Part shown: positions 4,763-54,421 of the stretch, one piece after another | How the letters are laid out: the number at the start of each line of letters is the position of its first letter | Position numbering within the stretch: the stretch's first letter is position 1 | Source of the DNA: an uncultured Alphaproteobacteria bacterium | GTDB lineage: Bacteria; Pseudomonadota; Alphaproteobacteria; Caulobacterales; Aquidulcibacteraceae | DNA: 64,000 bases | NCBI GenBank assembly: GCA_902826335.1 | Contig: CADEEL010000013.1 | Span: 1-64,000, forward strand | Reading direction: 5' to 3' | Notes under the pieces: generated by a model | What the model was told of the DNA's origin: nothing | Databases searched by the model: none | Seen by the model: the letters and a program-made list of their open reading frames with translations, nothing else | Made by a program: the position numbers and the translations under genes

Positions 4763-6043
4763 ATGAACCCCGCCCTCATTCACGCGGCCATAGCCTTCTG
4801 GCGCACCAAGCGCCTCGCGCGCCGGCTGCGCACGCGGGCGGATGTGCTTGCATGGCGGGCGGCGCGGCTCGACCGGTTTGTGCGGACAGTTATTCCGCAT
4901 GCGCCCTATTATGCGAGCCTTCACGCCACGCGGCTTGAGGATCTGCCAATCATCGACAAAGCGACGCATCTTGCGTGCTTTCACGATTTCAACACACGCG
5001 GCGTTTCGTCTGCCCAAGTGCGCGCGGCGCTGGATGACGGGCGCGAGCGGATCGGCGGCCTGATCATCGGGCAGAGCACGGGCACGAGCGGCAATCGCGG
5101 CGTTTACATCATCAGCGAGGCGGAGCGTTTTACCTGGCTTGGCGTATTATTGGCGAAGGCGCTGCCGGATTTTCCATTCACGCGCCACAAGGTGGCGCTG
5201 GCGCTGCCCGGCGCCAATCAACTCTACGCCTCGGCGAACGAGACCGGGAGATTGTCGCTGCGCTTCTTCGACCTGGGGCGCGGGCTCGAGTCCTGGCGCG
5301 ATGCGCTGGTGAGGTTCCAGCCGGATACGATTGTCGCGCCGCCCAAAGTGCTGCGCGCGCTGGCTGGAACGCCGGGGCTTGGCCCTACGCAGTTATTTTC
5401 CGGAGCGGAGGTCCTCGATCCACTCGATCGCGCGGCCATTGAAGCGGGCTTCGGCGTGCGTGTGCGCGAAATCTATATGGCGACGGAGGGTCTATTCGGC
5501 GTTGGCTGCACGCACGGAACGCTGCATCTGGCGGAGGATGTCGTGGCGTTTGAGTTTGAAGCGGTGGGCGAGGGTCTTGTTTCGCCGCTGATCACGGACT
5601 TCACGCGCACAACGCAGATCATGGCGCGCTATCGCATGAACGACCTCTTGCGTCTTGACGATGCGATGTGCGCGTGCGGCTCGCCCCTGCAAAGCGTGGC
5701 GAGCGTCGTGGGCCGCCAGGACGATGTGTTTCTCATTCCGGACGCGCGCGGCGCATTGGTGATGGTGACTCCCGACGTGTTGCGCAATGCGGTGGTGGAC
5801 AGCGATCGGCGTATTGTCGATTTCCGCATCGTTCAAGTCGAGGCGAGGCGTGTGGTGCTTTCGCTTGCGCGTGACCTACCAGCCGAAGCGGGCGCGTACG
5901 CGGCGGATGCTCTCAAGCGCGCGTTCGCAAAGGCGGGCGCCGGGGAGGTTGAGATCACGCTTCAGGCCGGCATAGAGGCGGTGATGGATCGTAAACTGCG
6001 GCGCGTGCGCCGCGGGTGGGCGCCCGCTACAAATTCAGTCTGA
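4763..6043 (+). CDS. PaaK/F390-synthetase-like adenylate-forming enzyme
   Basis: A 426-residue member of the adenylate-forming superfamily, of the phenylacetate-CoA ligase / F390 synthetase type, which activates a carboxylic acid with ATP. The phosphate-binding loop GQSTGTSGNRG (residues about 102-112) is clear. Further conserved blocks are LFSGAEVLD, YMATEG, and RYRMNDLLRLDD with the adenylate-binding Asp. CACGSPLQSV matches the C-terminal cysteine-rich region of PaaK relatives. The C-terminal lid carries the catalytic Lys region (DRKLRRVRRGW). ATG 4763 gives a normal N-terminus. It ends 17 bases inside the oppositely oriented Rieske gene, so it faces the biosynthetic operon and is probably part of the same pathway, activating an acid for ligation or thioester formation. 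The substrate is unknown. Confidence 0.8.
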   Translation: MNPALIHAAIAFWRTKRLARRLRTRADVLAWRAARLDRFVRTVIPHAPYYASLHATRLEDLPIIDKATHLACFHDFNTRGVSSAQVRAALDDGRERIGGLIIGQSTGTSGNRGVYIISEAERFTWLGVLLAKALPDFPFTRHKVALALPGANQLYASANETGRLSLRFFDLGRGLESWRDALVRFQPDTIVAPPKVLRALAGTPGLGPTQLFSGAEVLDPLDRAAIEAGFGVRVREIYMATEGLFGVGCTHGTLHLAEDVVAFEFEAVGEGLVSPLITDFTRTTQIMARYRMNDLLRLDDAMCACGSPLQSVASVVGRQDDVFLIPDARGALVMVTPDVLRNAVVDSDRRIVDFRIVQVEARRVVLSLARDLPAEAGAYAADALKRAFAKAGAGEVEITLQAGIEAVMDRKLRRVRRGWAPATNSV

Positions 6044-7025
6044 GCGTGCGCTCGCTCTCGGGCGGCGTCTCGCCGGCGATCAAGGCATTTATGGCGGGAT
6101 ACAGCACGTCAAGCGGGCCCAAAGCGTAGCGCGGCGCGCCGAAGGCGGCGATGTCGTCAGTCTGCTTGCGCAGCGCGGCGCGATCCTGCGCCAAGACGGG
6201 GATGTGGAAGGCGCGCAACAGCGCTTCCTTGAGCCAGGCGGGCGCCATGCCGCGCGGCGTGGCGAAATGCGCGAAGGGACGCACGCAGGTTTCGGTTTCG
6301 GGCGTGAAGAACACGGTGATGGCGAGGCGCAGGCCCTTGGGCCCCTCGAATGCGACCTGGCCCGTCGATGGCGGAAAAAAGCGGCCGATGCTGGCGGTGC
6401 GAAGGCCCTCCAGGAGGCGCGGCATGAGGGCCCGCGCGCGGGTGTTTTCCACATAACGGGCTTCCGCAAAAGTCGACCGTACACGGATGGTGACGTCAAC
6501 GGGGCGGCGCATTTCTCGCGCCCGAACGATGCCGGCGTGCAGGAAATGGGGATGGGCTGGATCAAGCAGGTTTTCAATGGCGTCAATGAGGCGCGCGCGC
6601 GAGGGGCGCACAGGCCAAAGGAATGTATCGAAGCCTTCTGCTTCAATCGGAAACGGGAGGCGCGGTTCGTCTTCCGGCGCTGGCGCAAGCGTCGTCCATA
6701 CCAGGCCGGCGCGTACGCGCGTCGGCAAGGCTTGCGCGCCGTGTTTGGCTGGTTGATCAACGCCCGGCGTCAACACGCAGGCGCCGTCGCCAGCAAAGCG
6801 CCAACCATGATAGGGGCACTCGATCGCGCCCGCTTCAACACGCCCACGCGAGAGCGCCATGTTGCGATGAGGGCAGCGATCGATCAGCACGGCGGGGCCG
6901 GCCGCGGATTGGAACACAACGAGCGGCGTATCCATCAGGCGCCGGGCCAATGGTCCGCGCCCAAGCTCTCGCACAGCCGCGACGGGGGCCCATCCGCTGG
7001 CGACGGCGGCGGGATACGCGCTCAC
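6027..7025 (-). CDS. Rieske non-haem iron oxygenase
   Basis: A 332-residue oxygenase with an N-terminal Rieske [2Fe-2S] domain (C51-P-H53 and C70-P-Y-H73-G-W) and a C-terminal mononuclear iron domain with N152-x2-D155-x2-H158-x4-H163. Such proteins hydroxylate or demethylate small molecules using electrons from a separate reductase; no reductase is encoded nearby. The start is GTG at 7025, overlapping the TGA of the gene upstream (GTGA), so translation is coupled. It is the last gene of the operon starting at 12063 and likely performs a late tailoring oxidation. Its final 17 bases overlap the converging adenylating-enzyme gene. Confidence 0.88.
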   Translation of the reverse strand: MSAYPAAVASGWAPVAAVRELGRGPLARRLMDTPLVVFQSAAGPAVLIDRCPHRNMALSRGRVEAGAIECPYHGWRFAGDGACVLTPGVDQPAKHGAQALPTRVRAGLVWTTLAPAPEDEPRLPFPIEAEGFDTFLWPVRPSRARLIDAIENLLDPAHPHFLHAGIVRAREMRRPVDVTIRVRSTFAEARYVENTRARALMPRLLEGLRTASIGRFFPPSTGQVAFEGPKGLRLAITVFFTPETETCVRPFAHFATPRGMAPAWLKEALLRAFHIPVLAQDRAALRKQTDDIAAFGAPRYALGPLDVLYPAINALIAGETPPESERTLRLNL

Positions 7026-8161
7026 AAGCCGCGCTCACGCATGAGTGGGGCGGCGATCTTGTTCAGCGCATGCTCGATCGCGGCGATCAGCGCGCGGCGC
7101 GATCGCGAGAGGTGCGCGACATAATAAGCGGAATATTCCAGCACGGCGCGCGCGCCGCGATTGCGCTTGAACGAGGCCGCGCCCGCGGAGCCGTTGAGCT
7201 TAGCGCCATGTTCGAGTGCGACTTGCGCAAGCAGTGCGCTGGCGATGCGGTAAAGCCCTTCGGCGGCGGGTCGGGCGGTGTCATAGCCCACGATCGGCGT
7301 GGTCAGCACGCCGCCGCGCAGGAAGCAGCCGACAATGCTGACGAGCGCACCATCGGCGTCGCGCAGGCCTCGGTACTGAAAAATTTCCGCGCGGTGGGTC
7401 ATATCAATAAAGGCCGCCGTGAACACTGGATTAAGTCTGGAATAGCGATCCAGATAGAGCATCGCGTAGAGTTCGGCGATCCTTTCAGCGTCTCCCGGGC
7501 GCAATTCATCGAGGCGGTCTATGTGCGCCGCATGCGCGGCGAGCAAGGTGAGATCGCGGCGCGTGTCGCGGCGGGGCGCCCAATCGGCGGCGAGATCGTC
7601 GGTGACGTAGATTTGCCGGCTGGGCAGCAAGCGCCAACCGGCTCGCCTGAACGCCGCGCACAGGTCAGGGTCTGACCAGTCATTGAGCGAGCGAACGGCG
7701 ATGACGTGTTCGGGGAATGTGTGCGTGAGCAGGGCGCCGATCGCGCCGATATCTTCGCCGCGCCATCCGTCATGCAGATTGGTCGAGAGCATCCAATTGC
7801 CCACATGCACAATCTTGTTGATGCGCGCCGCGCGCAGCGCCGCGCCCGCGCCGCTGGCGAGCACGGCGAGCGCCGGCGTCCATCGTCCCGCGTCGACAAG
7901 GCGAAGCTCTTCCTTGGCGTAGAGCGCGTAGGCGGTGTGCGGCAGGCAGACATAGGAATCTCCATATTCGCCGTCATTTATGGTGACGGGGTGGATACGG
8001 TCGTTCGAGGCGAGGCCCATCACACTGGTGCGCAAATTGGAGATCAGAGCCGGCGCGCCATGCGCCGCGAAGGCCTGGAGATAGGCGCGTTCCTTTGCGT
8101 GGGCGGGGTTCCAGCCGCCTGGCGGGCCGATCATTGGATCGAAGAGCGCGGGAGCGGTCAC
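7022..8161 (-). CDS. GNAT-like protein of the biosynthetic operon
   Basis: A 379-residue soluble protein that seems to have two halves. The N-terminal half contains SNLRTSVMGLASND and the unusual INDGEYGDSYVCLPHTAY. The C-terminal half (from about DELRPGDAERIAELY) has the order of a GNAT/FemAB-type acyltransferase fold, including YRGLRDADGALVSIVGCFLRGG, a beta-strand pair on either side of a conserved turn. I infer that it transfers an acyl or aminoacyl group to the pathway intermediate, but no catalytic residue can be named. GTG at 8161 is the start, in a GTGA overlap with the ATP-grasp gene; the longer frame upstream is antisense-like and rejected. Confidence 0.62.
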   Translation of the reverse strand: MTAPALFDPMIGPPGGWNPAHAKERAYLQAFAAHGAPALISNLRTSVMGLASNDRIHPVTINDGEYGDSYVCLPHTAYALYAKEELRLVDAGRWTPALAVLASGAGAALRAARINKIVHVGNWMLSTNLHDGWRGEDIGAIGALLTHTFPEHVIAVRSLNDWSDPDLCAAFRRAGWRLLPSRQIYVTDDLAADWAPRRDTRRDLTLLAAHAAHIDRLDELRPGDAERIAELYAMLYLDRYSRLNPVFTAAFIDMTHRAEIFQYRGLRDADGALVSIVGCFLRGGVLTTPIVGYDTARPAAEGLYRIASALLAQVALEHGAKLNGSAGAASFKRNRGARAVLEYSAYYVAHLSRSRRALIAAIEHALNKIAAPLMRERGL

Positions 8162-9309
8162 GCGATGGGCTCGCCGTTCCACTCGATGTCGTCCGTGCTT
8201 TGTCCGGACGCGGAGCGACCGCGGCTGAGGCCGATGGCGGTGAAGCGGGCGGCGTCCAGCAATGCGCCAAGAGCAAGCCACGGCTCGCCTGGAACATCCA
8301 GCACATCACGGCTGCGCTTGCGATCCCGATTGAAGTCGCGCCATCGCCCGTTCGCCAGAGCGTGCGGCGCGCCGAGCAGCCACATGGCCGGCGCCAAATG
8401 GCGGGCCTCGGCGCTCGGCGTCTGCAACGGCGCTTCGCCAAGAAAGGCGCGTGCAAGGCGCGGAGCGGCGTCAAACAAGTGCAAACCGCTGACGCCGCGC
8501 GGATTGCATTCGATCGGCGCGAGGCGCCCGTCAGGCGCGCGGATGACGTCGTAGGAAAGCTGCCCCGTCGCGCCTGTGGCGGCGGCGATTGCGCGCGCCA
8601 TGTCCAGCAAGGCCGGATCGCGATCCGTTTCGAAATAGAAGCTCGCGGAGCGGCCCAGCCGCCACAATGGTCGGTAGGCGGCGAAGGCGATGACTTCGCC
8701 GGCGCGGCACGCGGACCAGACGCAGACCTCTTCGCCTGGCGCGAACGCCTGCACGGCCCAGGGTTCTTGCGGCAAAGGCGAGACGGCGCCGAACGAGCGC
8801 GCGTCCGGGCGGATGCGCGCATGGGAGGCGAAGCGAGAATACTCGGGCTTGAGCACGATCTCGCGCGCGTGCGCGCGCCATGGGGCCAGTTCATCGCGCG
8901 ATGTGACGCGCGCTGTTTCCGGTGCGGCGAGGCCGAGGCCTCGCGCGAACGCCGCGAACGCGACCTTTGAGTGCAGCATACGAAGCGTATCGGGCGGCGG
9001 CGCAAACACGCGGTCCGCGAAGCCGAACCGTACGGCGGCCTCCGCCACATAGAACACTTCTTCGCACGTGGGGACGATGAGGCGCGGATCGAGGCGTGCG
9101 ACGAGGCTCGCCAATCCAAGCGCGAAGTCTTGAAACGCGAACCGGGGCGGGGCGAGGCGATGCGTACACGCGCGAAAGCGCGGCGAAAGGCGCGCGGTCC
9201 AGTTCGTAATGGAATCGGCAAGATGCGGCGTATGGCCCGCCGCCAGGAAACTGCGCGCTAGATCGAGCGCGATGGGCGCGCGCGCGCCGGTGATCAAGAT
9301 CGCGCTCAT
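8158..9309 (-). CDS. ATP-grasp ligase
   Basis: A 383-residue ATP-grasp enzyme, the family that joins a carboxylate to an amine or thiol through an acyl-phosphate. The N-terminus has a Rossmann-like start (ILITGARAPIALDLARSF) as in carbamoyl-phosphate-synthase-like members. The ATP-binding middle shows EIVLKPEYSRF with the conserved Lys and WAVQAFAPGEEVCVW, and the metal-binding end shows IECNPRGVSGLHLF (conserved E and N). Start ATG 9309 lies in an ATGA overlap with the upstream hydrolase gene. Together with the adenylating enzyme it suggests amide or peptide-like bond formation in the product. The substrate is unknown. Confidence 0.83.
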   Translation of the reverse strand: MSAILITGARAPIALDLARSFLAAGHTPHLADSITNWTARLSPRFRACTHRLAPPRFAFQDFALGLASLVARLDPRLIVPTCEEVFYVAEAAVRFGFADRVFAPPPDTLRMLHSKVAFAAFARGLGLAAPETARVTSRDELAPWRAHAREIVLKPEYSRFASHARIRPDARSFGAVSPLPQEPWAVQAFAPGEEVCVWSACRAGEVIAFAAYRPLWRLGRSASFYFETDRDPALLDMARAIAAATGATGQLSYDVIRAPDGRLAPIECNPRGVSGLHLFDAAPRLARAFLGEAPLQTPSAEARHLAPAMWLLGAPHALANGRWRDFNRDRKRSRDVLDVPGEPWLALGALLDAARFTAIGLSRGRSASGQSTDDIEWNGEPIA

Positions 9310-10082
9310 TCGAGCGGCGCCGGATCGTGACAATAGATAACGTCGCCTCCCGCGCGGGCGAAGGCGGCGATGCGGGCGCGCGTTATCTTGTCCGCCTCAG
9401 AATCGTCCATGATCCAGCGCGCGGGCGGTCCCGGCGGTCGATTCTCCATGACGGCGCAGGCGCACCATTGAGCGTCCGCCGCGTAGAGCAATGGCGGATC
9501 CAGTTTGGGCCAGACGAACCCGGTGTGACCGCGCATATGGCCGGGCAGCGGGACGGCGAGCACGGCGCCATCGCCAAACACGTCGCGCGCGGGGCCGAGG
9601 CCGAGCGGCGCCTCAGCCAGCGGGCGCGATCCAAAACGCACAATTCGCTCGGTGAAGTCTGCGGGCAGCAATTCGCGGAAAACGCCGTGGCGAAGGCGGG
9701 TGAGCCCTATTGCATTGAGATAATGATCGACGCCGGCGCCGTCCGCGTAGATGGGCGCTTCAGGATAATCGCGCAGTGCGGCGATGTGATCGGCGTGGAG
9801 GTGCGTAAGCAGGATCGCGGCGATGGCCTCCGGCGCGGGCCGCTGATCGCGCAGGAGACGGGGGCGGAGCGCCGCCGCATAGAGTCGCAGCGCTGCTGAT
9901 CGCGGGCCTTGCATCACGCGCGGGGCGTAACCGGTGTCGATGAGGCAGCGACCCATGGTGGGATGATCGAAGACGCCATAACGAACTGGGATATCGATCG
10001 CGCGCCAGGCGCCGCCGCGCAGAATGAGGCGCTCGGGCGCACGCACGAAGGCGCTGTTGTAAAAGACCGGACGCGCGCTCAT
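9306..10082 (-). CDS. Metallo-beta-lactamase-fold hydrolase
   Basis: A 258-residue metallo-beta-lactamase-fold protein. The zinc motif H94-L-H96-A-D98-H99 is intact, with further likely ligands H182 (PLPGHMRGHTG), D203 (YAADAQW) and H252 (YCHDP). The overall form, with CLIDTGYAPRV and ILLTHLHADHI, is closest to N-acyl-homoserine-lactonase-like members, so a lactone or thioester is a reasonable substrate class. In this operon it may cut an acyl thioester or open a lactone intermediate. It may also give self-protection; the sequence does not decide. ATG at 10082 overlaps the reductase gene stop (ATGA). Confidence 0.85.
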   Translation of the reverse strand: MSARPVFYNSAFVRAPERLILRGGAWRAIDIPVRYGVFDHPTMGRCLIDTGYAPRVMQGPRSAALRLYAAALRPRLLRDQRPAPEAIAAILLTHLHADHIAALRDYPEAPIYADGAGVDHYLNAIGLTRLRHGVFRELLPADFTERIVRFGSRPLAEAPLGLGPARDVFGDGAVLAVPLPGHMRGHTGFVWPKLDPPLLYAADAQWCACAVMENRPPGPPARWIMDDSEADKITRARIAAFARAGGDVIYCHDPAPLE

Positions 10083-11050
10083 GAGCGAGTTTTCTCGAAT
10101 GTGCGGGCGAGACCTTCATCGAACGTCACGCGCGGGCACCAGCCAAGTTGCGCCTTCGCGGCTGATATATCGAGCGTTTGGGTGTAGGCGAAGAGCGCCG
10201 CGCCATAGGCTGTAATGGCCGGCTCGGGCCGATTGGGACGGCTGGCGGCGAGCGCTTCGAGCGTTCGCGCGTAGGCGAGCACCGCCCAAATAGGGCGCGC
10301 GCGCCAGCGCAAGTTTTGGTTCGCGCGCGCGGCGGCGCGTTCGGCCACGTCGCGCACATTGAGAGCGACGCCGCCGGAAATATTAAAAATACGCTGGGTC
10401 AAGGCGGCGCTTGGTGTGTCGAGCGCCGCGAGCGCGGCGTCGGCCACATCGTCAACATAGGTCAGATCGGTGGCGGCGCGCCCGCCCTTCATAAGCGGCA
10501 AGGCGCGTTTCTCGGCGGCGGCCAGGAGACGCGGCAACAGGGTCGTATCGCCGGGGCCATAAAGCCCGCGTGGACGCAGAATGATGGGATCGAGATCGGA
10601 CGCCGCCAGGACCAGTGCCTCCGCTTGGCGTTTCGTATGCGCGTAGGCGTTGACGGGGCACGGCAGCGGCGCATCTTCGCGCACGTTCACCTGATCCTTG
10701 AATCTGAAATAGAGGCTCGGCGTTGAGATATGCACGAAGCGTTTCGCGCCAGCGGCGCGTGCGATGGCCAGCGCCGATTGCGTTCCGTGCACATTCGCGG
10801 CGTGAAATTCCCGGCGCGCGCCCCAGGGCGCGGAAAGCGCCGCGCAGTGGATAACTGCGTCGCAAGTCAAGCCTCTGTGTTGTGCGGCGGCGCTTAGGTC
10901 GCACGCAATCGGCGTCGCGCCGGCTGCGGCGAGGCGCGTTAATTTCGCTCGATCTCGGCCAAGCGCGATGACGTCGCGCCGATCGGCCAGCAATCGGCGC
11001 GTCAAGGCGCCGCCAAGGAATCCAGTCGCGCCGGTGACGAGAATGCGCAT
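10079..11050 (-). CDS. NAD-dependent epimerase/dehydratase-type reductase
   Basis: A 323-residue extended short-chain dehydrogenase. The cofactor loop GATGFLG is at residues 8-14, the active-site motif Y-A-H-T-K sits near residue 147, and RPRGLYGPGD follows as in the 3-beta-hydroxysteroid dehydrogenase / OleD-like branch. Members of that branch reduce a beta-keto acid made by a condensing enzyme, which fits the KAS III-like gene directly upstream (2 bases between them). I therefore infer reduction of a 3-keto intermediate, not sugar epimerisation. ATG 11050 is used; the longer frame runs into the upstream gene. Confidence 0.82.
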   Translation of the reverse strand: MRILVTGATGFLGGALTRRLLADRRDVIALGRDRAKLTRLAAAGATPIACDLSAAAQHRGLTCDAVIHCAALSAPWGARREFHAANVHGTQSALAIARAAGAKRFVHISTPSLYFRFKDQVNVREDAPLPCPVNAYAHTKRQAEALVLAASDLDPIILRPRGLYGPGDTTLLPRLLAAAEKRALPLMKGGRAATDLTYVDDVADAALAALDTPSAALTQRIFNISGGVALNVRDVAERAAARANQNLRWRARPIWAVLAYARTLEALAASRPNRPEPAITAYGAALFAYTQTLDISAAKAQLGWCPRVTFDEGLARTFEKTRS

Positions 11051-11052
11051 GC

Positions 11053-12063
11053 TCAAATCACGAGCGCGGCGCCGCCAAGCGATACGCCGGCGGAGGTTCC
11101 GAGCAGCAAGACCCTCATGCCGCGCTGGAGGCGGCCCTGGCCGCGCGCCTTGTGAAGCGCGATCGGCCACGACGCGGCGACCTGGTTGCCGATCTCGGCG
11201 ACGAGATCGACAACGCGATCAGCGGGAAAACCGCACCGCTTGATGATGTGGGCGAGGGCGTGTGGGCTGGCCTGGTGCGGTACGACAAGATCGACCTCGT
11301 CCTGGCGCCAGCCCGCCTTATCGAGCAGACGCGCGATGAAATCGGGCGCGGCTTCGGAACTCAAACGGTAAAGCTGCGCGCCCTTCATGTCGAACCACGC
11401 ATTGGCGGCGAAGACGTCATGTTCGGCATGAAAATCATAGCGCGTGCCGCCGGCGCGTAATTCGCAATATTCATAGCCTTCGGCATAGGTCTCCATGTGC
11501 GCCGCGCCGAGGCGATAGGGCGCATCGCCATCGCCGGCGCGTACGAGAAGCGCGGCCGCGCCATCGCCGAAGAGGCCGGCGGTGCGCGGATCGGTTGTCC
11601 ACGGCAGCGCGCGCGAGGCGATTTCAGATGTGACGATGAGAATATTTTCGGCGCGCCCCGCCGCGATGTGCAATGCGGCGACATCGAGCGCCACGAGCGC
11701 GCTGAGGCATGTGGCGTTGACGTCATAGGCCGGGCAGGGGTGTGTGTTCAGCCCAAGCTCCCGTTTGATCAGCGGCGCCGTTGCGGGGATTGGCTGGCGG
11801 CCCACCGCGGCCGCGAACAAGACAAGATCTAGTTCGCTTGCTTCAACGCCCGCTTCGGCAAGGGCGGCGCACGCCGCGTCCGCGCCCATGCGCTCTTGGG
11901 TTTCATCGCTGCTTGCGATGTGGCGCTGGCGCACGCCGCAATTGCGCTCGATCCAGCCGGGAGACAGGCCGTATTGGCTGTCAAGATCGCGCGACAGCGC
12001 GATCCTGTGCGGCAGGTAAACGCCGAGTCCCGCAATGAACGGCGTTGAAGAGGCCTGGACCAT
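11053..12063 (-). CDS. KAS III-like condensing enzyme
   Basis: A 336-residue thiolase-fold condensing enzyme related to FabH. The catalytic triad is visible: C119 in VNATCLSAL, H263 in VPHQASPHAL and N293 in GNQVAAS (FabH usually has GNTSAAS). GDGAAALLV and the closing GTSAGVSLGGAALV complete the pattern. It should join an acyl-CoA or acyl carrier protein thioester to another thioester. No acyl carrier protein is encoded nearby. It is the first gene of a six-gene leftward operon, so its promoter lies in 12064-12290. ATG 12063 has GGGA six bases upstream; ATG 12081 is less likely. Confidence 0.85.
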   Translation of the reverse strand: MVQASSTPFIAGLGVYLPHRIALSRDLDSQYGLSPGWIERNCGVRQRHIASSDETQERMGADAACAALAEAGVEASELDLVLFAAAVGRQPIPATAPLIKRELGLNTHPCPAYDVNATCLSALVALDVAALHIAAGRAENILIVTSEIASRALPWTTDPRTAGLFGDGAAALLVRAGDGDAPYRLGAAHMETYAEGYEYCELRAGGTRYDFHAEHDVFAANAWFDMKGAQLYRLSSEAAPDFIARLLDKAGWRQDEVDLVVPHQASPHALAHIIKRCGFPADRVVDLVAEIGNQVAASWPIALHKARGQGRLQRGMRVLLLGTSAGVSLGGAALVI

Positions 12064-12294: not shown

Positions 12295-13788
12295 TCAACC
12301 TGCGCCGGCTGGATCCATCGCCTCGATGTCGTTCTGCGCGCTCTGATGGTTTGACGCCGGTGCGCGTGGCGCAGCGAAGCCTTTTCTGGGCATGTCGCCC
12401 CAAGCGCGCTCACCATGCGCCCATTGCCAAAGACCCTGCAGACGCCAGATCGAATTAAGCTGGCGGTAGCCGAAATTCTCCAGCACCGCCGCGCCGGCCA
12501 GGCGCACAAGATCGCGCGCCTTGGGAAAGCGGCGCAGCTCGGCTTCCTCGATGGCCAGCGCGCCGACGCTGATGGCAACGCCAAAGGCGAACGACACCGC
12601 GAGATAAGCGAGCAGAAAATCGAACGAGAGAACGCCCAGCGCCCACATCAGCGGCATGAGGATGTAGCCGCAGAGCTCGAACACGGGGCCGAGCACATCG
12701 AATATGAGCACCTGTCCGAGCCCGATGGCGCCGACGCGGCCATAACGCGGATTGAACAGCATGGCCTTGTGGGTGAAGAACGTCTCCAGCGCGCCGCGAT
12801 GCCAGCGGGCGCGTTGGCGCGACAGCGTGCGCAAGGATTCCGGCGCCTCGGTCCAGCAGACCGGTTCGGGCACGAAAGCGATTCGATAAGGCTTGCCGCG
12901 CTCCAGAAAGGTGCGATGCAGGCGCACGACCAATTCCATATCCTCGCCGACGGTTCCGCGCGCGTAGCCGCCAATGTCAAGCAGCGCGGCGCGGCGGAAA
13001 AGGCCGAAAGCGCCGGAGACGATCGTCAGTGCGCCGATGCGGCTCCAGGCCAGGCGCGCGAGCAGGAAGGCGCGCAGATATTCGATGGTTTGAAACAGCG
13101 CCCAGATATTGCGCGCCACGCCGATTTCTACGATGCGGCCATCCTCGACGCGGCAGCCATTGGCGATGCGCACCGTGCCGCCAACGGCGATGACCCGTTC
13201 TGGATCCTCGACAAACGGCTGCACGGCGCGCAGCAGTGAATCGGGCTCCAGTAAGGAATCCGCGTCCATCGCGCAGACAATTGGCGCGCGGGCCAAATTG
13301 AGGCCGGCGTTCAGCGCATCGGCCTTGCCGCCATTCAGCTTGTCAATCACGATCAATTGCGGATAGCGCGCCGAGCCGTAGACGCCGCGAATGGGCGCGT
13401 GCGTCAGAGCGGGGTCATAGTCGCGCTCGATCGGCTGAAGATCGAAGGCGGCGATGAGCACGGCGAGCGTTTCATCCTTCGATCCGTCATTGATGACGAT
13501 GATTTCAAAGTGCGGATAGTCGAGCTGCAGAAGCGAGTGGACGCTGTTTTCGACGGTGGCGGATTCGTTATAGGCCGGCGCGAGCAGGGCGATCGGCGGG
13601 GCGATGGCGGCCGAGCGGCGCCAGAGCACGCGCGCGCGCGGCTCAGGCGGATCGCTGGCGAGTGCGCGCTGGGCCACAATCAGCTGGGCGAGATAGATGA
13701 GGTTTTGCAGCACGCCGGCGGCGATGATAAGCCACGCCAGCGCATGCGCCACGGCGACTGCGGCGGAGTTGAGGAGGGCTTCAGTCAC
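12295..13788 (-). CDS. Membrane glycosyltransferase, family 2
   Basis: A 497-residue inner-membrane GT2 enzyme of the processive polysaccharide-synthase type. One membrane helix opens the protein (about 10-40). The catalytic domain has the nucleotide-binding APAYNES (about 70-76), NDGSKDE, the D175-A-D177 metal motif, G-E282-D283 as base, and Q325-R-A-R-W329. Three to four helices follow (about 350-440). The last 40 residues are a polar tail. The start is GTG 13788 in a GTGA overlap with the HEAT-repeat gene, so this is the third gene of an operon with that protein and a YaiO-like barrel. It is likely to build an exopolysaccharide in the membrane; the sugar is unknown. Confidence 0.86.
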   Translation of the reverse strand: MTEALLNSAAVAVAHALAWLIIAAGVLQNLIYLAQLIVAQRALASDPPEPRARVLWRRSAAIAPPIALLAPAYNESATVENSVHSLLQLDYPHFEIIVINDGSKDETLAVLIAAFDLQPIERDYDPALTHAPIRGVYGSARYPQLIVIDKLNGGKADALNAGLNLARAPIVCAMDADSLLEPDSLLRAVQPFVEDPERVIAVGGTVRIANGCRVEDGRIVEIGVARNIWALFQTIEYLRAFLLARLAWSRIGALTIVSGAFGLFRRAALLDIGGYARGTVGEDMELVVRLHRTFLERGKPYRIAFVPEPVCWTEAPESLRTLSRQRARWHRGALETFFTHKAMLFNPRYGRVGAIGLGQVLIFDVLGPVFELCGYILMPLMWALGVLSFDFLLAYLAVSFAFGVAISVGALAIEEAELRRFPKARDLVRLAGAAVLENFGYRQLNSIWRLQGLWQWAHGERAWGDMPRKGFAAPRAPASNHQSAQNDIEAMDPAGAG

Positions 13789-14822
13789 AGCCGGCGATCC
13801 CGCGCGGCGCCGCGTTGCGGGGCCAGCGCACGTAGGGATTGCGCCACTGACACGATGTGCGCCGCGCCGCGCTCATTCAGTTTGTGCAGGGCTTCTTCGG
13901 CTCGAAAGCGCACCCACCAGACCTCATCCTCAAGCAGGCGCGCGACCCGCGCGTGATGTTCGAACGCGCCGATGCGGCCGAGGGCTTCGGCGGCCTTGAG
14001 GCGCACGCACCAATGCGCATCTTCGGTCGCGGCGGCGAGCACGGGGGCGGCGTCCGCGTACCCGAGTGCGCCCAGCGCGCTGATCGCCGCGGCGCGCACG
14101 TCGGCGTTATCGTCTCGCGCCGCCCGCGCCACCGGTTCGAGACAGGAGAGTTTTCCTGTTTCTCCCAACGCTCGGAGCAGCGCGCACTTTTCAGCCGGGT
14201 CGGCCGCACTGGCGAGGGCGCCCAGCGAACCAGGAACATCGGCCTCCACGCTGGTCTCAATCAACTCATAGAGCGCGGGGGATTTGTGCGCGCCGGGCCG
14301 TGCGGCGATTTCCAGAAGCCGTGTGAGATCGGCGCCGACGCCGAGTTCGGCACGTGTTTTCAGCGCCGCGATCACCACGCGCAGCTGGCGTGAGCGTTCG
14401 GCGTGCTTCAACACGTTTAGCGTGCGCGTATCTGGAAACAGGCGAAGCGCTTCGATCGAGGCGATTCGCTCGGTTGTGCGGCCGCGGCGGGCCTGGCGCC
14501 GCATGCGCTCGTCCAGACCGATCTCACGCAACAGCGCCACTAAACGCGTGCGCGCCGGCCCACGCATGATGGCGGCCGCGTCCAGGGCGGTCTCGATCAG
14601 CAGCATACGATCGACCGATGTCGCGATTGAGAGATTGGGCCGTGTATCGCCGGAGAGCGCGAAGTGGAGCAGGGCCTTTGAAATCGCCGCACGCCGCTCT
14701 GGCAAGTTCGTCATGCCGTGCGCGCGATAGAGGCGGGCGAGTATGAGAGCGCCCATCGTACCGCACGCCAGCGCGGCGAGCGCGACCGCCGATAGCCACA
14801 CGAAGGCGAGGAGGCTCGGCAT
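13785..14822 (-). CDS. Membrane-anchored HEAT-repeat protein
   Basis: A 345-residue protein with one N-terminal membrane helix (about 3-30, LLAFVWLSAVALAALACG) and a long helical solenoid. The clearest HEAT units are near the end: DDNADVRAAAISALGALGYADAAPVL, EDAHWCVRLKAAEALGRIG, and EDEVWWVRFRAEEALHKLNE, each about 31 residues. Such proteins are scaffolds. Its position between a polysaccharide synthase and a TPR/outer-membrane barrel suggests that it links synthesis to export. ATG 14822 lies one base after the upstream stop. A longer frame starting at 14867 would run into the upstream gene and is rejected. Confidence 0.82.
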   Translation of the reverse strand: MPSLLAFVWLSAVALAALACGTMGALILARLYRAHGMTNLPERRAAISKALLHFALSGDTRPNLSIATSVDRMLLIETALDAAAIMRGPARTRLVALLREIGLDERMRRQARRGRTTERIASIEALRLFPDTRTLNVLKHAERSRQLRVVIAALKTRAELGVGADLTRLLEIAARPGAHKSPALYELIETSVEADVPGSLGALASAADPAEKCALLRALGETGKLSCLEPVARAARDDNADVRAAAISALGALGYADAAPVLAAATEDAHWCVRLKAAEALGRIGAFEHHARVARLLEDEVWWVRFRAEEALHKLNERGAAHIVSVAQSLRALAPQRGAARDRRL

Positions 14823-14823
14823 G

Positions 14824-15915
14824 TCAGAGCGTCCAGGCCACAGCGAGCAGCGCTTCGGTGCGCTCATAGGCCTCGCGCTGCTCGCGCGTCAGGCCAATTC
14901 GCAAGCGTCTGTTCGGCGAGAGTTGAAATGCGACGCCCAGAGTTAGCGCCCGAACCTCAACTGTGGCGCCATCGGAAGATTCGGGCGCGTCCGCCCAGCT
15001 CGCATCGATGGCGAGGCCGCCGCGCAAGCGCCACGTTGCCCCCAGTGCGTAGCCGGGGCGCAAATCACCGAATTCGTCGCGGACGACAGCGCCTCTCACC
15101 TGCGTGGACAGCGCCTCGCCGAACCGGCGTGCGGCGCGCAGCTCGAGCTTGTCCACGTCGCCTGTGGCGTAGTGCGCGAAGGTCGCCGCCGCCGCGAAAT
15201 CCCAAGCGGGCGCCAGATCGGGCGCTTCGACTTCGAGGCGCATGAGGCGCTCGGGACGGAAGTCAGCATCTGGCGTTCCACCCAAGGCCAACGTCCAGAT
15301 CGCGCCATAGGCCGCGCGGGCGAGACGCGCCTCGGCGTAAACATCTGTCCGCCCAAAGCGCTCGGCCGCTTCGATGGCGCCGGCGTAGGACCAGGGTCCG
15401 GCGCGGCGGGAGAGGGCGAAGGCGGCTTCGCGCCAGCTTGGCAGATCGTTGGAGAGCGTGCTGGCGGCGGCGGACACGTCGATGCGCCAGCGCGCTGGAG
15501 GCCGTGTTGCAGTCCGCGCCGCGAGGGCGCGACGCAGGTCAAGCACTTCGCCGTCGCCGGCGCGTGTGGGCGAGACGTGGGCCAGGTGCGCGGCGGCGCC
15601 CGCCGCGTCGCCCGCGCGCAGATCGAGCCGGGCGAGCGCGACGTGCGCGTCGTCATAATTGGGGGCGAGGCGCAAAGTCTGGCCGAAGGCGGCGCGGGCG
15701 GCTTGGTCGCGCCCGAGCGCGGCATGGCTGAGGCCCAGTTCGAGCCAGGCGTCCGCGTCGGCGGGGTGCGCGGCCAAGTGGCGTTCAAGCTGTGATGCCG
15801 CCTCCTCGAAGCGGCCGGCATGACGCGCCTGCCGGGCGGTTTCCTGCGCTGGCGCGGGGGCCTGGCAGCTCTCAAGAATGGCGGGGGGGATGGCGATGAG
15901 CAGCGCTAGAGGCAT
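14824..15915 (-). CDS. TPR protein with YaiO-type outer-membrane barrel
   Basis: A 363-residue exported protein. A short hydrophobic leader (with IPPAILESCQ, possibly a lipoprotein signal) is followed by TPR units (about 25-130: ARHAGRFEEAASQLERHLAA, ALGRDQAARAAFGQTLRL, and LDLRAGDAAGAAAHL). The rest is beta-rich with alternating aromatic strands and ends in a terminal hydrophobic strand (ALLAVAWTL), as in YaiO-family outer-membrane barrels. In E. coli yaiO sits by the glycosyltransferase gene yaiP; here the partner glycosyltransferase is two genes downstream. It probably forms the outer-membrane exit for the polysaccharide. It is the first gene of the three-gene operon, with GAGG nine bases before ATG 15915. 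Confidence 0.78.
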   Translation of the reverse strand: MPLALLIAIPPAILESCQAPAPAQETARQARHAGRFEEAASQLERHLAAHPADADAWLELGLSHAALGRDQAARAAFGQTLRLAPNYDDAHVALARLDLRAGDAAGAAAHLAHVSPTRAGDGEVLDLRRALAARTATRPPARWRIDVSAAASTLSNDLPSWREAAFALSRRAGPWSYAGAIEAAERFGRTDVYAEARLARAAYGAIWTLALGGTPDADFRPERLMRLEVEAPDLAPAWDFAAAATFAHYATGDVDKLELRAARRFGEALSTQVRGAVVRDEFGDLRPGYALGATWRLRGGLAIDASWADAPESSDGATVEVRALTLGVAFQLSPNRRLRIGLTREQREAYERTEALLAVAWTL

Positions 15916-39716: not shown

Positions 39717-40727
39717 ATGCACGTCCAGGCCACGCTGCCCGCGCGTCTCTATGCGGGCGAGGCGCATTTCGCGATCGAGAAAGAGACTCTGTTGGCCAAG
39801 TCCTGGCGGCTGGCGGCGCATGAAAGCATGCTTGCCCGCGCCGGGGATTATGTGGCGGACCTTGTCGCCGGGCGGCCAATCGTCATCGTGCGCGACGAAG
39901 CGGGCGGGCTCAACGCCTTTCACAATGTATGCCGGCATCGCGCCGGCCCGCTCGTCACTGATGAAGCTGGGCGCTGCGAAAAGGAGTTCGTGTGCGCCTA
40001 TCATGGCTGGCGCTATGCGCTGGACGGGCGGTTGCGCAACGCGACGGATTTTGGCGCGGCGGACGGATTTGATGCGCGCGCGTTTGGGCTTTTTCCGCTC
40101 AAGGTCGAGACGTGGCGTGGGTTTGTGTTCGTCAATTGCGATCTATCCGCGCCGCCGCTGGCGGAGGCCATCGCGCCCTTGGAGGCGATCTGGGCGGAGC
40201 GAAACTTCGCGCCGCAACCGTTTGCGTTGAGGCGACGCCACGACATCGCCTGCAATTGGAAAACTTATGTTGAAAATTACCTCGAAGGCTATCATGTGCC
40301 GCGCGTGCATCCCGCGCTCAATGACGAAATCGAAGCGGGCGCATATCGCGTTGAAATGCGCGGCGCCGTGGCGATCCATCATGCGCCTTCAAGAGCGCGT
40401 GACGGCGTCTATGACGGATTGTGGGCGTGGATGTGGCCCGATCTCGGCGTCAATGTCTATCGCCATGGCGTTATGATGGAGCGCATCACGCCGCTTTCGG
40501 CGGGCATGACGCGCCTCGATTACCTTTATTTCTATGATCCGGCGCGGCGCGAGGACCTCGAAGCCACGCTGGCGATGTCCGATGCTGTGACGGCGGAGGA
40601 CAAGGACATCTGCGAGCGCGTGCAGGCCAATCTCAATGCGGGCGTTTATGAACAGGGCGTGCTCTCGCCCAAGCACGAGGGCGCTGTGGCGTGGTTTCAG
40701 ACGCGGATCGCGGAGGCGCACGCATGA
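39717..40727 (+). CDS. Rieske ring-hydroxylating or demethylating oxygenase
   Basis: A 336-residue oxygenase alpha subunit. The Rieske ligands are C72-R-H74 and C93-A-Y-H96-G-W; the mononuclear iron site shows ENYLEGYHVPRVHP (His193 and His198). The arrangement resembles oxygenases that demethylate quaternary amines (choline, betaine and stachydrine types) or hydroxylate aromatics. A reductase partner is not encoded here. It is first in an operon with an amino-acid-type permease and an FAH hydrolase, overlapping the permease start (ATGA). Confidence 0.87.
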   Translation: MHVQATLPARLYAGEAHFAIEKETLLAKSWRLAAHESMLARAGDYVADLVAGRPIVIVRDEAGGLNAFHNVCRHRAGPLVTDEAGRCEKEFVCAYHGWRYALDGRLRNATDFGAADGFDARAFGLFPLKVETWRGFVFVNCDLSAPPLAEAIAPLEAIWAERNFAPQPFALRRRHDIACNWKTYVENYLEGYHVPRVHPALNDEIEAGAYRVEMRGAVAIHHAPSRARDGVYDGLWAWMWPDLGVNVYRHGVMMERITPLSAGMTRLDYLYFYDPARREDLEATLAMSDAVTAEDKDICERVQANLNAGVYEQGVLSPKHEGAVAWFQTRIAEAHA

Positions 40728-42025
40728 GCGACAAGAAAATCGGGCCGCTGCGCGCGACTTTTCTGGTCGCGGGCAACATGATCGGCGCGGGCGTTTATCT
40801 CTTGCCCGCGAGCCTTGGCGCGGTTGGGTCCGTGAGCATTCTGGGCTGGATCGTCACTAGCGTCGGGGCATTGTTGCTTGCGCTTGTTTTTTCGGCGCTG
40901 TTTCGGCTGCGCCCGGAGGCGCACGGCGTCATCGCGCAAGTGCGCGACGGAATGGGTGGATTTTTCGGGTTTCAATCCAGTTTGCTTTATTGGATCGGAT
41001 GCTGGGTCGGCAATGTGGCCATCGCGGTGGCGGCGAGCGGCTATTTGGCGAGTTTTTTTCCTGCGCTGCGCGCGGCGCCGGCGGCGGCGGCGTCAACCAT
41101 CGGGCTTATATGGCTTGTTGCCGCGCTTAATTTTTTCGGCGCCCGGCGGGTGACGGATTTCAAGGCGCTGGCGCTCGTTATTGGGCTCGCGCCCGTGCTC
41201 GGCGTCGCGGTGTTCGGGTGGATTGCATTCGACGCGGATGTGTTCATCGCCTCCTGGAACGTCAGTGGACGGACGGACATGGCGGCCGTGCCGGCGACGT
41301 TTGCGCTCATATTCTGGGCGTTTCTGGGCCTTGAAAGCGCGGCCGTGGCGGCGGCCGTCGTGCGCAATCCTGGGCGCGATGTGCCGATCGCCACGATCTC
41401 GGGAGCGGCGCTGGCGGCGTGCGTCTATATCGCCGCGTCGGGCGCCATGATGGGGCTATTGCCGGCCGCGCAGCTTGCGGCGTCAACCGCGCCGTTCGCG
41501 GACGCGGCCGCGCGCTGGGTTGGGCCGATCGCGGGCGCGCTCGTTGCGGTGTGCGCGATCCTCAAGGCGGTGGGAACGCTGTCCGGCTGGGCGCTGGTGA
41601 CGGCGGAGGCTTCACGCAGCGGCGCGGCGGCCGGCGTTTTTCCAGCGCTGTTTCACGAAGCGGGAGGCGGGCCGCCGCGGCGAAACCTGATCATCGTCGC
41701 CGCGCTCATGAGCCTTGTTGCGCTGCTGACGGCCTCCCCGCGCTTGGCCGCGCAATTCACCTATCTCGTTAATTTGTCCGTGCTGCCGTTTCTTATCGTG
41801 TTCACTTATTGTTGTGTTTCGCTGTGGCGATTGTGCGCCGCTTCACCCGCGCGTTGGCCGCTGCGCTTCGTCGCCGTGATGGCGGGCGTGTTTTGCGAGT
41901 GGGCGATCACCGCGACGGATATTGTTCAAGTCGCGCTCGTGGCGGCGGTGGCTGTGCTTGCGCTGCCGATGTATCTGCTCATGCGGCCGAGCATGGCGGC
42001 GAACGCGGCGGAGAGGGCGACATGA
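40724..42025 (+). CDS. APC-family amino acid/amine permease
   Basis: A 433-residue membrane protein with about 12 helices. The first helix has the APC signature AGNMIGAGVYLLPASLG (substrate-binding GxG break), and helix 6 has FALIFWAFLGLESAAVAAAVVRNPGRDVP, as in AdiC/arginine-agmatine-type exchangers. It probably imports a cationic amino acid or amine that the oxygenase then attacks. ATG 40724 overlaps the oxygenase stop, and the gene's own stop overlaps the next ATG; both overlaps are ATGA. Confidence 0.88.
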   Translation: MSDKKIGPLRATFLVAGNMIGAGVYLLPASLGAVGSVSILGWIVTSVGALLLALVFSALFRLRPEAHGVIAQVRDGMGGFFGFQSSLLYWIGCWVGNVAIAVAASGYLASFFPALRAAPAAAASTIGLIWLVAALNFFGARRVTDFKALALVIGLAPVLGVAVFGWIAFDADVFIASWNVSGRTDMAAVPATFALIFWAFLGLESAAVAAAVVRNPGRDVPIATISGAALAACVYIAASGAMMGLLPAAQLAASTAPFADAAARWVGPIAGALVAVCAILKAVGTLSGWALVTAEASRSGAAAGVFPALFHEAGGGPPRRNLIIVAALMSLVALLTASPRLAAQFTYLVNLSVLPFLIVFTYCCVSLWRLCAASPARWPLRFVAVMAGVFCEWAITATDIVQVALVAAVAVLALPMYLLMRPSMAANAAERAT

Positions 42026-53128: not shown

Positions 53129-54421
53129 ATGGACCTTCGCGTTTCTATCGCCGCGCTGCTTGCGCTCTCCAGCCCAGCGGCTGCGCAGGATGCTCACCAG
53201 CACATGCATGGTGCGCCTGCGGCGCCGGCCCGGGAAACGCCCGTGGATCACAGGGATCATGGTTCTGGCGGCGCACTCGGCGCCTATCCCATGGCGCGGG
53301 AGGCCTCGGGCACGAGTTGGCAGCCGGACGCCTCCGAGCATGGCGGCGTGCATGCGCGTGTCGGCGACTGGACGTTCATGGGGCACGCCCTGCTCAACGG
53401 CGTGCTGACGACGCAGGGCGGGCCGCGCGGGGATGATGACGCCTTCATCGCCGGCATGATCATGGGCGCGGCGCGACGCGATTTCGCCAATGGAGACACG
53501 CTCAATCTGCGTGCGATGCTCAGCCCCGATCCGTTGATGGGCGCGGATGGCTATCCATTGCTGTTCGCAGCGGGCGAGACGGCCGACGGCGTCACGACTT
53601 TGGTGGATCGTCAGCACCCGCACGATCTTTTCGTTGAGCTGTCCGCATCCTATGCGCATCGTTTGTCGGTGCGCGACAGCGTGTTCGTCTATGCGGGCCT
53701 GCCTGGCGAGCCGGCGTTCGGGCCGCCAGTGTTTATGCACCGGCTCTCGGGCATGGATTCGCCGGAAGCGCCGATCACGCATCACTGGCTCGATTCCACG
53801 CACGTCACGTTTGGCGTGCTCACCGCCGGCTATGTGCATGACGGCTTCAAGATCGAGGCGTCGCGCTTTCGCGGCCGCGAGCCGGATGAGCATCGGTATG
53901 ACGTCGAAACCGGCGATCTCGATTCTACTTCGGTGCGCCTGAGCTGGAACCCGACGCCCAATTGGGCGTTGCAGGCGTCATGGGCCGAGATACGCAGCCC
54001 GGAGGCGCTTGAGCCTGATGAGGATGAAACACGCACATCGGTGAGCGCGATCTATACGCGCGCGATCGGCGCCGAGGGCTGGCTTTCGGTGACGGGGGCG
54101 GCCGCGCTGAAAGAACGGAGCGACGGGGCCTCGCTCGACGCTTGGCTCCTTGAAGGTGCGCTACGGCCCAATCCGCGCTGGACGATCTTCGCGCGCCTCG
54201 AACATCTGGAGACGGATGAGTTGGGATTGGCGCCGCATGGGCCGGCCGAACGGGTGACGCGTGCTTCCCTCGGCGCGGTGCGGGACTGGCGCGTGGCCGA
54301 ACATGCCGCGCTGGGGTTTGGCCTGCAAGGGAGCCTCGCGCTGCCGTCGGACGGACTTTCGCCGAGCTATAATGGAGATCAGGCGGGCGGCGTGGCGTTC
54401 GTCCGCCTTCGGATCGATTAG
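53129..54421 (+). CDS. Outer-membrane protein, His/Met-rich N-terminus
   Basis: A 430-residue exported protein. After a signal peptide (ends AAAQDA) the mature protein opens with a His- and Met-rich stretch (HQHMHGAP, DHRDHG) that could bind copper, and contains HPHD, a Met-rich patch and SPEAPITHHWLDSTHVTFGV. The rest shows alternating beta-strands ending in VAFVRLRID, as for an outer-membrane barrel. Proteins with this segment are often found beside copper-resistance genes, from memory; none is nearby. It converges on the large gene with overlapping stops at 54418-54421 (TTAG). Confidence 0.62.
   Translation: MDLRVSIAALLALSSPAAAQDAHQHMHGAPAAPARETPVDHRDHGSGGALGAYPMAREASGTSWQPDASEHGGVHARVGDWTFMGHALLNGVLTTQGGPRGDDDAFIAGMIMGAARRDFANGDTLNLRAMLSPDPLMGADGYPLLFAAGETADGVTTLVDRQHPHDLFVELSASYAHRLSVRDSVFVYAGLPGEPAFGPPVFMHRLSGMDSPEAPITHHWLDSTHVTFGVLTAGYVHDGFKIEASRFRGREPDEHRYDVETGDLDSTSVRLSWNPTPNWALQASWAEIRSPEALEPDEDETRTSVSAIYTRAIGAEGWLSVTGAAALKERSDGASLDAWLLEGALRPNPRWTIFARLEHLETDELGLAPHGPAERVTRASLGAVRDWRVAEHAALGFGLQGSLALPSDGLSPSYNGDQAGGVAFVRLRID

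Follow-up and report, generated by a model that had tools for sequence, protein, structure and literature searches.

A seven-gene cluster of an uncultured alphaproteobacterium and its relatives in many phyla: a putative carrier-free pathway for acyl-derived small molecules

The alkylquinolone pathway pqsABCDE unites an ANL ligase, a β-ketoacyl-acyl carrier protein (ACP) synthase III (KASIII), a metallo-beta-lactamase (MBL)-fold thioesterase and an oxygenase in one carrier-free system, and the lipstatin-type KASIII/OleC/OleD clusters employ Ole-like enzymes for a small lipid product together with a nonribosomal peptide synthetase (NRPS) for its amino acid. The OleABCD system, which yields olefins or beta-lactones, combines in a single operon a condensing enzyme, an OleD-type short-chain dehydrogenase/reductase (SDR), a hydrolase and a ligase of the ANL superfamily, while the ketosynthases MxnB and CorB of myxopyronin and corallopyronin serve polyketide synthase (PKS) assembly lines. 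In this study, we report the analysis of a seven-gene cluster of an uncultured alphaproteobacterium (genome of 2.9 Mb, 65% G+C; assembly GCA_902826335.1), located in a 64,000-nucleotide (nt) stretch of contig CADEEL010000013.1 which was analyzed as a whole and is referred to as the window. The cluster codes for a KASIII, an OleD-like SDR, an MBL-fold hydrolase, an ATP-grasp ligase, a protein resembling GCN5-related N-acetyltransferases (GNAT), a Rieske oxygenase and an adenylate-forming ligase related to F390 synthetase. With a probability of roughly 0.6, these genes encode a complete pathway of their own that leads to an acyl-derived small molecule, and they belong to a widespread family whose members share a core of four enzymes. 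That they form a biosynthetic unit is almost certain.

The locus resembles OleABCD in its condensing enzyme, OleD-like SDR, hydrolase and ANL-superfamily ligase. Nevertheless, membership in that system was ruled out by the missing catalytic Glu of OleA, by the hydrolase, which has the MBL fold and not the alpha/beta fold of OleB, and by the ligase, which is of the PaaK/F390 type (TIGR02304) and not OleC; in addition, the ATP-grasp, GNAT-like and Rieske proteins have no Ole counterpart. Membership in pqsABCDE was discarded on the KASIII profile score of PqsD (176 bits vs 360 for MxnB) and because nothing named PqsE was found among the matches of the lactonase-like MBL protein, the reductase and the ATP-grasp ligase being additional to that pathway. 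The NRPS of the lipstatin-type clusters has no equivalent in the window cluster. With MxnB and CorB the locus shares the KASIII clade, the Cys-His-Asn triad and an aliphatic residue in place of the OleA/PpyS glutamate (PMC4578411), but it carries a reductase, a hydrolase and ligases instead of PKS or carrier genes. Since none of the latter lie near the cluster, a role of the MxnB/CorB type, with an alpha-pyrone formed from PKS-bound beta-keto chains, does not appear to apply.

No genes for carrier proteins, NRPS or PKS were found near the cluster, as a previous sequence-only reading of this DNA had stated. The whole genome has one PP-binding domain, located on another contig (C23), and a motif scan of 80 sequences yielded no small ACP-like open reading frame (ORF). 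Therefore, the substrates must arrive as coenzyme A (CoA) esters or on the housekeeping ACP. The biosynthetic, carrier-free nature proposed by that reading is backed both by this absence and by the dedicated KASIII paralogue described below.

Conserved linkage and the four-gene core

A total of 79 loci from named genomes were collected by a scan with an ATP-grasp alignment, and the locus counts are thus conditional on that gene. All seven genes were found together in 14 of them, which clearly contradicts the possibility that they are separate in every relative. The KASIII, SDR and MBL genes were each present in about 70 loci, the F390-type ligase in 56, the GNAT-like gene in 47 and the Rieske gene in 17. 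The phyla represented include Pseudomonadota, Bacillota, Chloroflexota, Gemmatimonadota and Cyanobacteria/Sericytochromatia, and loci were also found in metagenome-assembled genomes (MAGs) labelled Akkermansia and Sandaracinus; the nearest named relatives of the seven-gene cluster were MAGs of Hyphomonadaceae. In the class to which the window belongs, the ATP-grasp gene is rare (4 of 385 genomes).

Co-occurrence was tested independently by searching 301 Bacilli genomes with the KASIII, ATP-grasp and ligase proteins. Cluster-type KASIII was detected in 39 genomes, ATP-grasp in 42 and F390-type ligase in 50, with all three in 38, so that 38 of the 39 genomes with cluster-type KASIII also had both other genes. 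The expected overlap of KASIII and ATP-grasp was 5.4 genomes (p = 1.7e-42, a value that overstates the evidence because the sampled genomes are related to each other). The listed positions place both genes next to each other in those genomes.

The junctions between genes are also preserved. Of the 91 junctions examined in 18 loci, 82 are overlaps and the other nine have spacers of 0–10 nt, and the close relatives L012–L014 keep the coupled junctions; therefore, the layout of the cluster is not due to chance. The sequence-only reading had described an unusual gene set forming a single translation-coupled unit. The recurrent linkage and the overlapping junctions in relatives corroborate the unit, but the set is not peculiar to one genome and belongs to a widespread family.

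The constant part of this family consists of the KASIII, the OleD-like reductase, the MBL hydrolase and the F390-type ligase; the ATP-grasp, GNAT-like and Rieske genes make up one tailoring set out of several, which are exchangeable. A search with the ligase family revealed KASIII-SDR-MBL-ligase loci without ATP-grasp in Escherichia coli, Enterobacterales-like surroundings, Burkholderia stagnalis, Paracoccus, Ketogulonicigenium, a Pseudomonas and small-genome Bacilli. The E. coli core proteins are 29–37% identical to those of the window, and the core operon was present in 674 of 5,426 complete genomes (about 12%), sitting between narI and purU in both annotated examples. Its tailoring genes, like those of E. 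coli relatives and Burkholderia, encode a PAP2 phosphatase and membrane enzymes of the FA_hydroxylase and FA_desaturase families; a sulfotransferase takes this place in two Rhodobacterales and a UGT-type glycosyltransferase in small-genome Bacilli. In six Chloroflexi loci a PF00501 ligase was found instead of the F390-type enzyme, which fits a role of the latter in acid activation. A phage collection gave weak FabH-like matches only.

The window cluster itself appears to have arisen by recombination between a scaffold module (KASIII-SDR-MBL) and a module for activation, ligation and oxidation (ligase-ATP-grasp-GNAT-Rieske), because the two gene sets have different nearest relatives, as trees also show. 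The KASIII, SDR and MBL proteins are nearest to those of Rhizobiales/Falsigemmobacter, outside the window's own small clade, and the other four are mostly nearest to a Caulobacter/Sphingomonas group. The identities to the Rhizobiales/Falsigemmobacter and Caulobacter/Sphingomonas proteins were, respectively, 41–50% vs 27–31% for the MBL hydrolase and 36–42% vs 54–67% for the ATP-grasp ligase. Topology tests, with groups picked after the identities were seen, rejected the Caulobacter grouping for MBL (approximately unbiased test, p = 1.4e-39) and the Rhizobiales grouping for ATP-grasp (p = 3e-5). This two-module makeup supports the order of steps proposed below.

The ketosynthase and its partner enzymes

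The catalytic residues C119, H263 and N293 were invariant in all 39 cluster KASIII members. The column of the OleA/PpyS catalytic glutamate (Glu117/Glu105) was occupied by Ile, Leu or Val in all 39, which sets the enzyme apart from OleA and PpyS. For MxnB and CorB, Val has been reported at this column, and the E105A variant of PpyS is inactive (Kresovic et al., PMC4578411). A profile search of solved structures placed MxnB (4v2p) and CorB (4yuc) on top, and they outscored the best FabH by 86 and 76 bits, respectively. In a tree that also included FabH proteins encoded by a number of these genomes, every cluster KASIII fell together with MxnB and CorB in one clade (support 98/94) apart from FabH, and MxnB and CorB were nested within it beside Chloroflexi proteins (100/97). 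The genome of the window has two further FabH-type proteins, both outside this clade, and a housekeeping FabH identity was thus ruled out.

Regarding the SDR, the best NCBIfam match was NF042422 (OleD) with 196 bits, well below the cut-off of 580, and residues Y136 and K140 of this PF01370 protein were invariant in aligned relatives. The MBL protein (PF00753) is a predicted hydrolase of the N-acyl homoserine lactone (AHL) lactonase type: its closest solved structures are AHL lactonases, and the full two-zinc set (H94, H96, D98, H99, H182, D203 and H252) was invariant in 44 sequences. The ligase scored 274.1 bits against TIGR02304 (curated cut-off 251.9), and it is thus a member of that family, for which we know of no tested function and which gains here a conserved pathway context. 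Its closest solved structures are those of PaaK; the P-loop S-(S/T)-G-T-S-G, the TEG motif and the catalytic Lys411 were conserved in 33 relatives, and Cys303xCys305 in 32 of the 33.

The ATP-grasp ligase matched NF005315 (PRK06849) with 265 bits, below the cut-off of 406, and its Pfam match was weak. Its model (predicted local distance difference test score, pLDDT, 95.5) has a fold like those of PurK, the L-amino acid ligases and PylC, and K154 and E267-C-N-P-R were invariant in aligned relatives. The GNAT-like protein has no Pfam match itself, although PF13480 was detected in 19 of 42 relatives, and its AlphaFold model (pLDDT 95.9) has a tandem-GNAT fold whose best matches in the PDB are L-PGS/MprF, the tRNA-dependent peptide synthases Sbb17/Sba18 and FemX. 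The R/QxxGxG/A CoA loop is not present at the usual GNAT strand-helix place in the family, where GYDTxLPxxxGLYR is found instead. The label "GNAT-like" of the sequence-only reading agrees with the fold, but the modelled protein bears a closer resemblance to transferases of the FemX/MprF type than to CoA acetyltransferases. A sequence search of solved structures with alignments of four GNAT-like and three ATP-grasp rows gave no matches, whereas the fold comparison did. In the Rieske oxygenase, the cluster ligands C51, H53, C70 and H73 and the iron ligands D155, H158 and H163 were invariant in 17 sequences, and SxtT/SxtDIOX are the closest solved structures. No partner reductase was found in the seven-gene cluster, the part of the genome searched for it.

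Gene arrangement and surroundings

The ORFs, junctions and family calls of the sequence-only reading agreed throughout with our annotation (Table 1) and with the Pfam and NCBIfam matches, the GNAT-like and ATP-grasp calls being refined. KASIII and OleD genes are separated by a 2-nt gap (GC), the OleD/MBL and MBL/ATP-grasp junctions are 4-nt ATGA overlaps and the ATP-grasp/GNAT and GNAT/Rieske junctions 4-nt GTGA overlaps; the last 17 nt of the ligase gene (6027–6043) are shared with the 3' end of the converging Rieske gene. A promoter and terminator scan revealed no signal exceeding chance. At least six gene orders were distinguished among related loci.

Table 1. Genes of the window cluster, related operons and gene orders.
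Feature	Position, locus or host	Strand	Remarks
F390-synthetase-related (PaaK-like) adenylate-forming ligase	4763..6043	+	TIGR02304; converges on operon
Rieske non-haem iron oxygenase, SxtT/VanA type	6027..7025	-	PF00355 + PF19112
GNAT-like protein, tandem GNAT fold, Acetyltransf_6/FemAB and MprF type	7022..8161	-	Model fold; PF13480 in relatives
ATP-grasp ligase, PRK06849-like	8158..9309	-	NF005315 below cut-off; model fold
MBL-fold hydrolase, AHL-lactonase type	9306..10082	-	PF00753
OleD-like extended SDR, candidate 2-alkyl-3-oxoacid reductase	10079..11050	-	PF01370; NF042422 best NCBIfam match
KASIII-type ketosynthase	11053..12063	-	PF08545/PF08541; first gene of operon
E. coli seven-gene operon: same four-gene core, then PAP2, FA-hydroxylase and FA-desaturase genes	NC_017631.1 1486371-1493252 (L148); L140		Generic annotation only
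Glycosyltransferase (UGT-type)-SDR-MBL-F390 ligase-KASIII	L162, L163, L165 (small-genome Bacilli)		L162 operon close to ffh-like gene
Gene order 1: ligase convergent as in window	L012-L014, L016, L020-L023, L090		
Gene order 2: ligase within operon	L005, L006, L026, L081		
Gene order 3: ATP-grasp convergent	Rhizobium, Shinella, Roseateles		Plasmid-borne; all seven genes of the window cluster
Gene order 4: KASIII-ATP-grasp-SDR-MBL-ligase	Bacilli		
Gene order 5: separate order	Chloroflexi		
Gene order 6: SDR-MBL-ligase-KASIII			

Just upstream, genes for a PgaC-like glycosyltransferase (GT2), a HEAT-repeat protein and a TPR/YaiO-like protein lie in a row on the same strand (12295–15915). Their homologues were sought in the related loci and were present in none, so these genes were ruled out as members and the boundary of the cluster was set at 12063. 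Elsewhere in the window, a second Rieske oxygenase gene (Ring_hydroxyl_A type) is followed by an overlapping amino-acid permease gene (39717–42025), and an ORF of 1,482 residues has no Pfam match (54418–58866).

Among related loci, Paenibacillus castaneae carries an eight-gene version (L041:8986-17631) with two ATP-grasp genes (9974–11140 and 14316–15470), a GNAT-like gene and a Rieske gene, and nearly all Paenibacillus clusters (L040–L089) have an additional SDR gene (PF00106) after the core. In a genome of the same order as the window, a lone GNAT-like relative was found at a contig end (L007:193-1446), the other genes being missing from the 14 kb read. It must also be noted that NZ_CP084075.1 (L143), titled as a 2.1 Mb plasmid of Fusobacterium vincentii, carries SDR-MBL-F390 ligase-KASIII, and that a record of this size is suggestive of a chromosome with the wrong label.

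Proposed pathway, alternatives and significance

From what is known of the enzyme families, we infer the substrates, order of steps and product as follows. The KASIII would accept on Cys119 an acyl chain that general fatty-acid metabolism supplies, either as a CoA ester or bound to the housekeeping ACP, and condense it with a second beta-keto or malonyl-type thioester; the lactonase-like zinc hydrolase would release the acid from its thioester or lactone, and the OleD-like reductase would convert the keto group into a hydroxyl. The F390-type ligase would then adenylate this acid and hand it over to an acceptor. In the branch of the window, the ATP-grasp ligase and the FemX/MprF-like transferase would attach an amine or amino acid, followed by hydroxylation or dehydrogenation of the product by the Rieske oxygenase, while other branches probably add a sugar, a sulfate or membrane-bound hydroxylation or desaturation to the product of the same core. 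The product would thus be a hydroxylated acyl compound, activated, amidated and oxidised. Its lipid-like acyl nature is probable; the acyl-amide or acyl-peptide product of the sequence-only reading is plausible, and an acyl amide in the branch of the window can be proposed tentatively. Several points weigh against this reading. A product or activity was sought for any member of the family and none was found, and single enzymes may have a housekeeping or catabolic use. The GNAT-like protein resembles its closest structural matches no further than in overall fold (best TM-scores by query length 0.40–0.50). In addition, ATP-grasp and GNAT-like genes occur as a two-gene pair without the core (L028, L043, L055, L067, L071, L076, L082, L085 and L092) in Microbacterium/Herbiconiux-type Actinobacteria, a Gemmatimonadaceae MAG and a Deinococcus plasmid, and therefore their chemistry need not depend on the core product.

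Other readings must be considered. The MxnB/CorB-like KASIII could join two (beta-keto)acyl chains head to head into a branched two-chain scaffold (2-alkyl-3-hydroxy acid, pyrone or beta-lactone) to be decorated by the other genes. The position of MxnB and CorB inside the cluster clade, next to the Chloroflexi members, their rank by a wide margin as best solved relatives and an OleD-like partner, the known substrate of OleD being a 2-alkyl-3-oxoacid, all point this way. We nevertheless regard it as somewhat doubtful: the glutamate base is replaced, as it also is in MxnB/CorB, whose activated beta-keto substrates come from a PKS that the window cluster lacks, and the His and Asn of decarboxylating FabH are retained, so that malonyl extension is equally possible. 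Rather unlikely is a membrane aminolipid, instead of a diffusible metabolite, formed by transfer of an amino acid from aminoacyl-tRNA to the hydroxy-acyl product. The GNAT-like protein, with MprF and FemX as best fold matches and no CoA loop at its place, would suit this transfer, and the PAP2, hydroxylase and desaturase of the E. coli branch point to membrane lipids; on the other hand, tandem CoA-dependent GNATs match only somewhat less well, PF13480 includes enzymes that do not use tRNA, and the GNAT gene was undetected in many Paenibacillus clusters.

Degradation pathways often contain PaaK-like ligases, Rieske oxygenases and MBL hydrolases, and the cluster might break down or detoxify a foreign acid activated by the ligase, with a thiolase-like KASIII and with MBL and Rieske enzymes opening rings. 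This is improbable given a KASIII of the condensing FabH/MxnB kind, no accompanying set of dehydrogenase, hydratase and thiolase, and a core paired elsewhere with lipid, sugar and sulfate tailoring enzymes. The opposite strand of the ligase gene could suggest chance neighbours or a decayed remnant with no single unit, but the ligase lies within the operon in other lineages, and this explanation was refuted by the conserved linkage, the translational coupling and the invariant active sites.

No description came to light when the open-access literature (which does not include subscription papers) was searched for this gene set, for the F390 family and for the operon of E. coli. The component families are known, and their combination and spread are apparently undescribed, a prior account of the E. 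coli or Paenibacillus operons being possible. In our opinion, the chances are even that these loci represent a still unnamed class of lipid natural products that is carrier-free and has been widely transferred, with a four-enzyme scaffold core and exchangeable tailoring in many phyla, including the E. coli genomes indicated above; the pyrone ketosynthases of myxopyronin and corallopyronin would have been recruited from this class. A new compound class is a realistic prospect. The analysis suggests an origin for MxnB/CorB-type ketosynthases and gives a shared pathway context to families seemingly without any (TIGR02304, PRK06849 and PRK07204). In addition, it points to an unassigned metabolite operon in very well studied bacteria, as the core operon in E. 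coli and as the ATP-grasp version in 38 of 301 Bacilli genomes.

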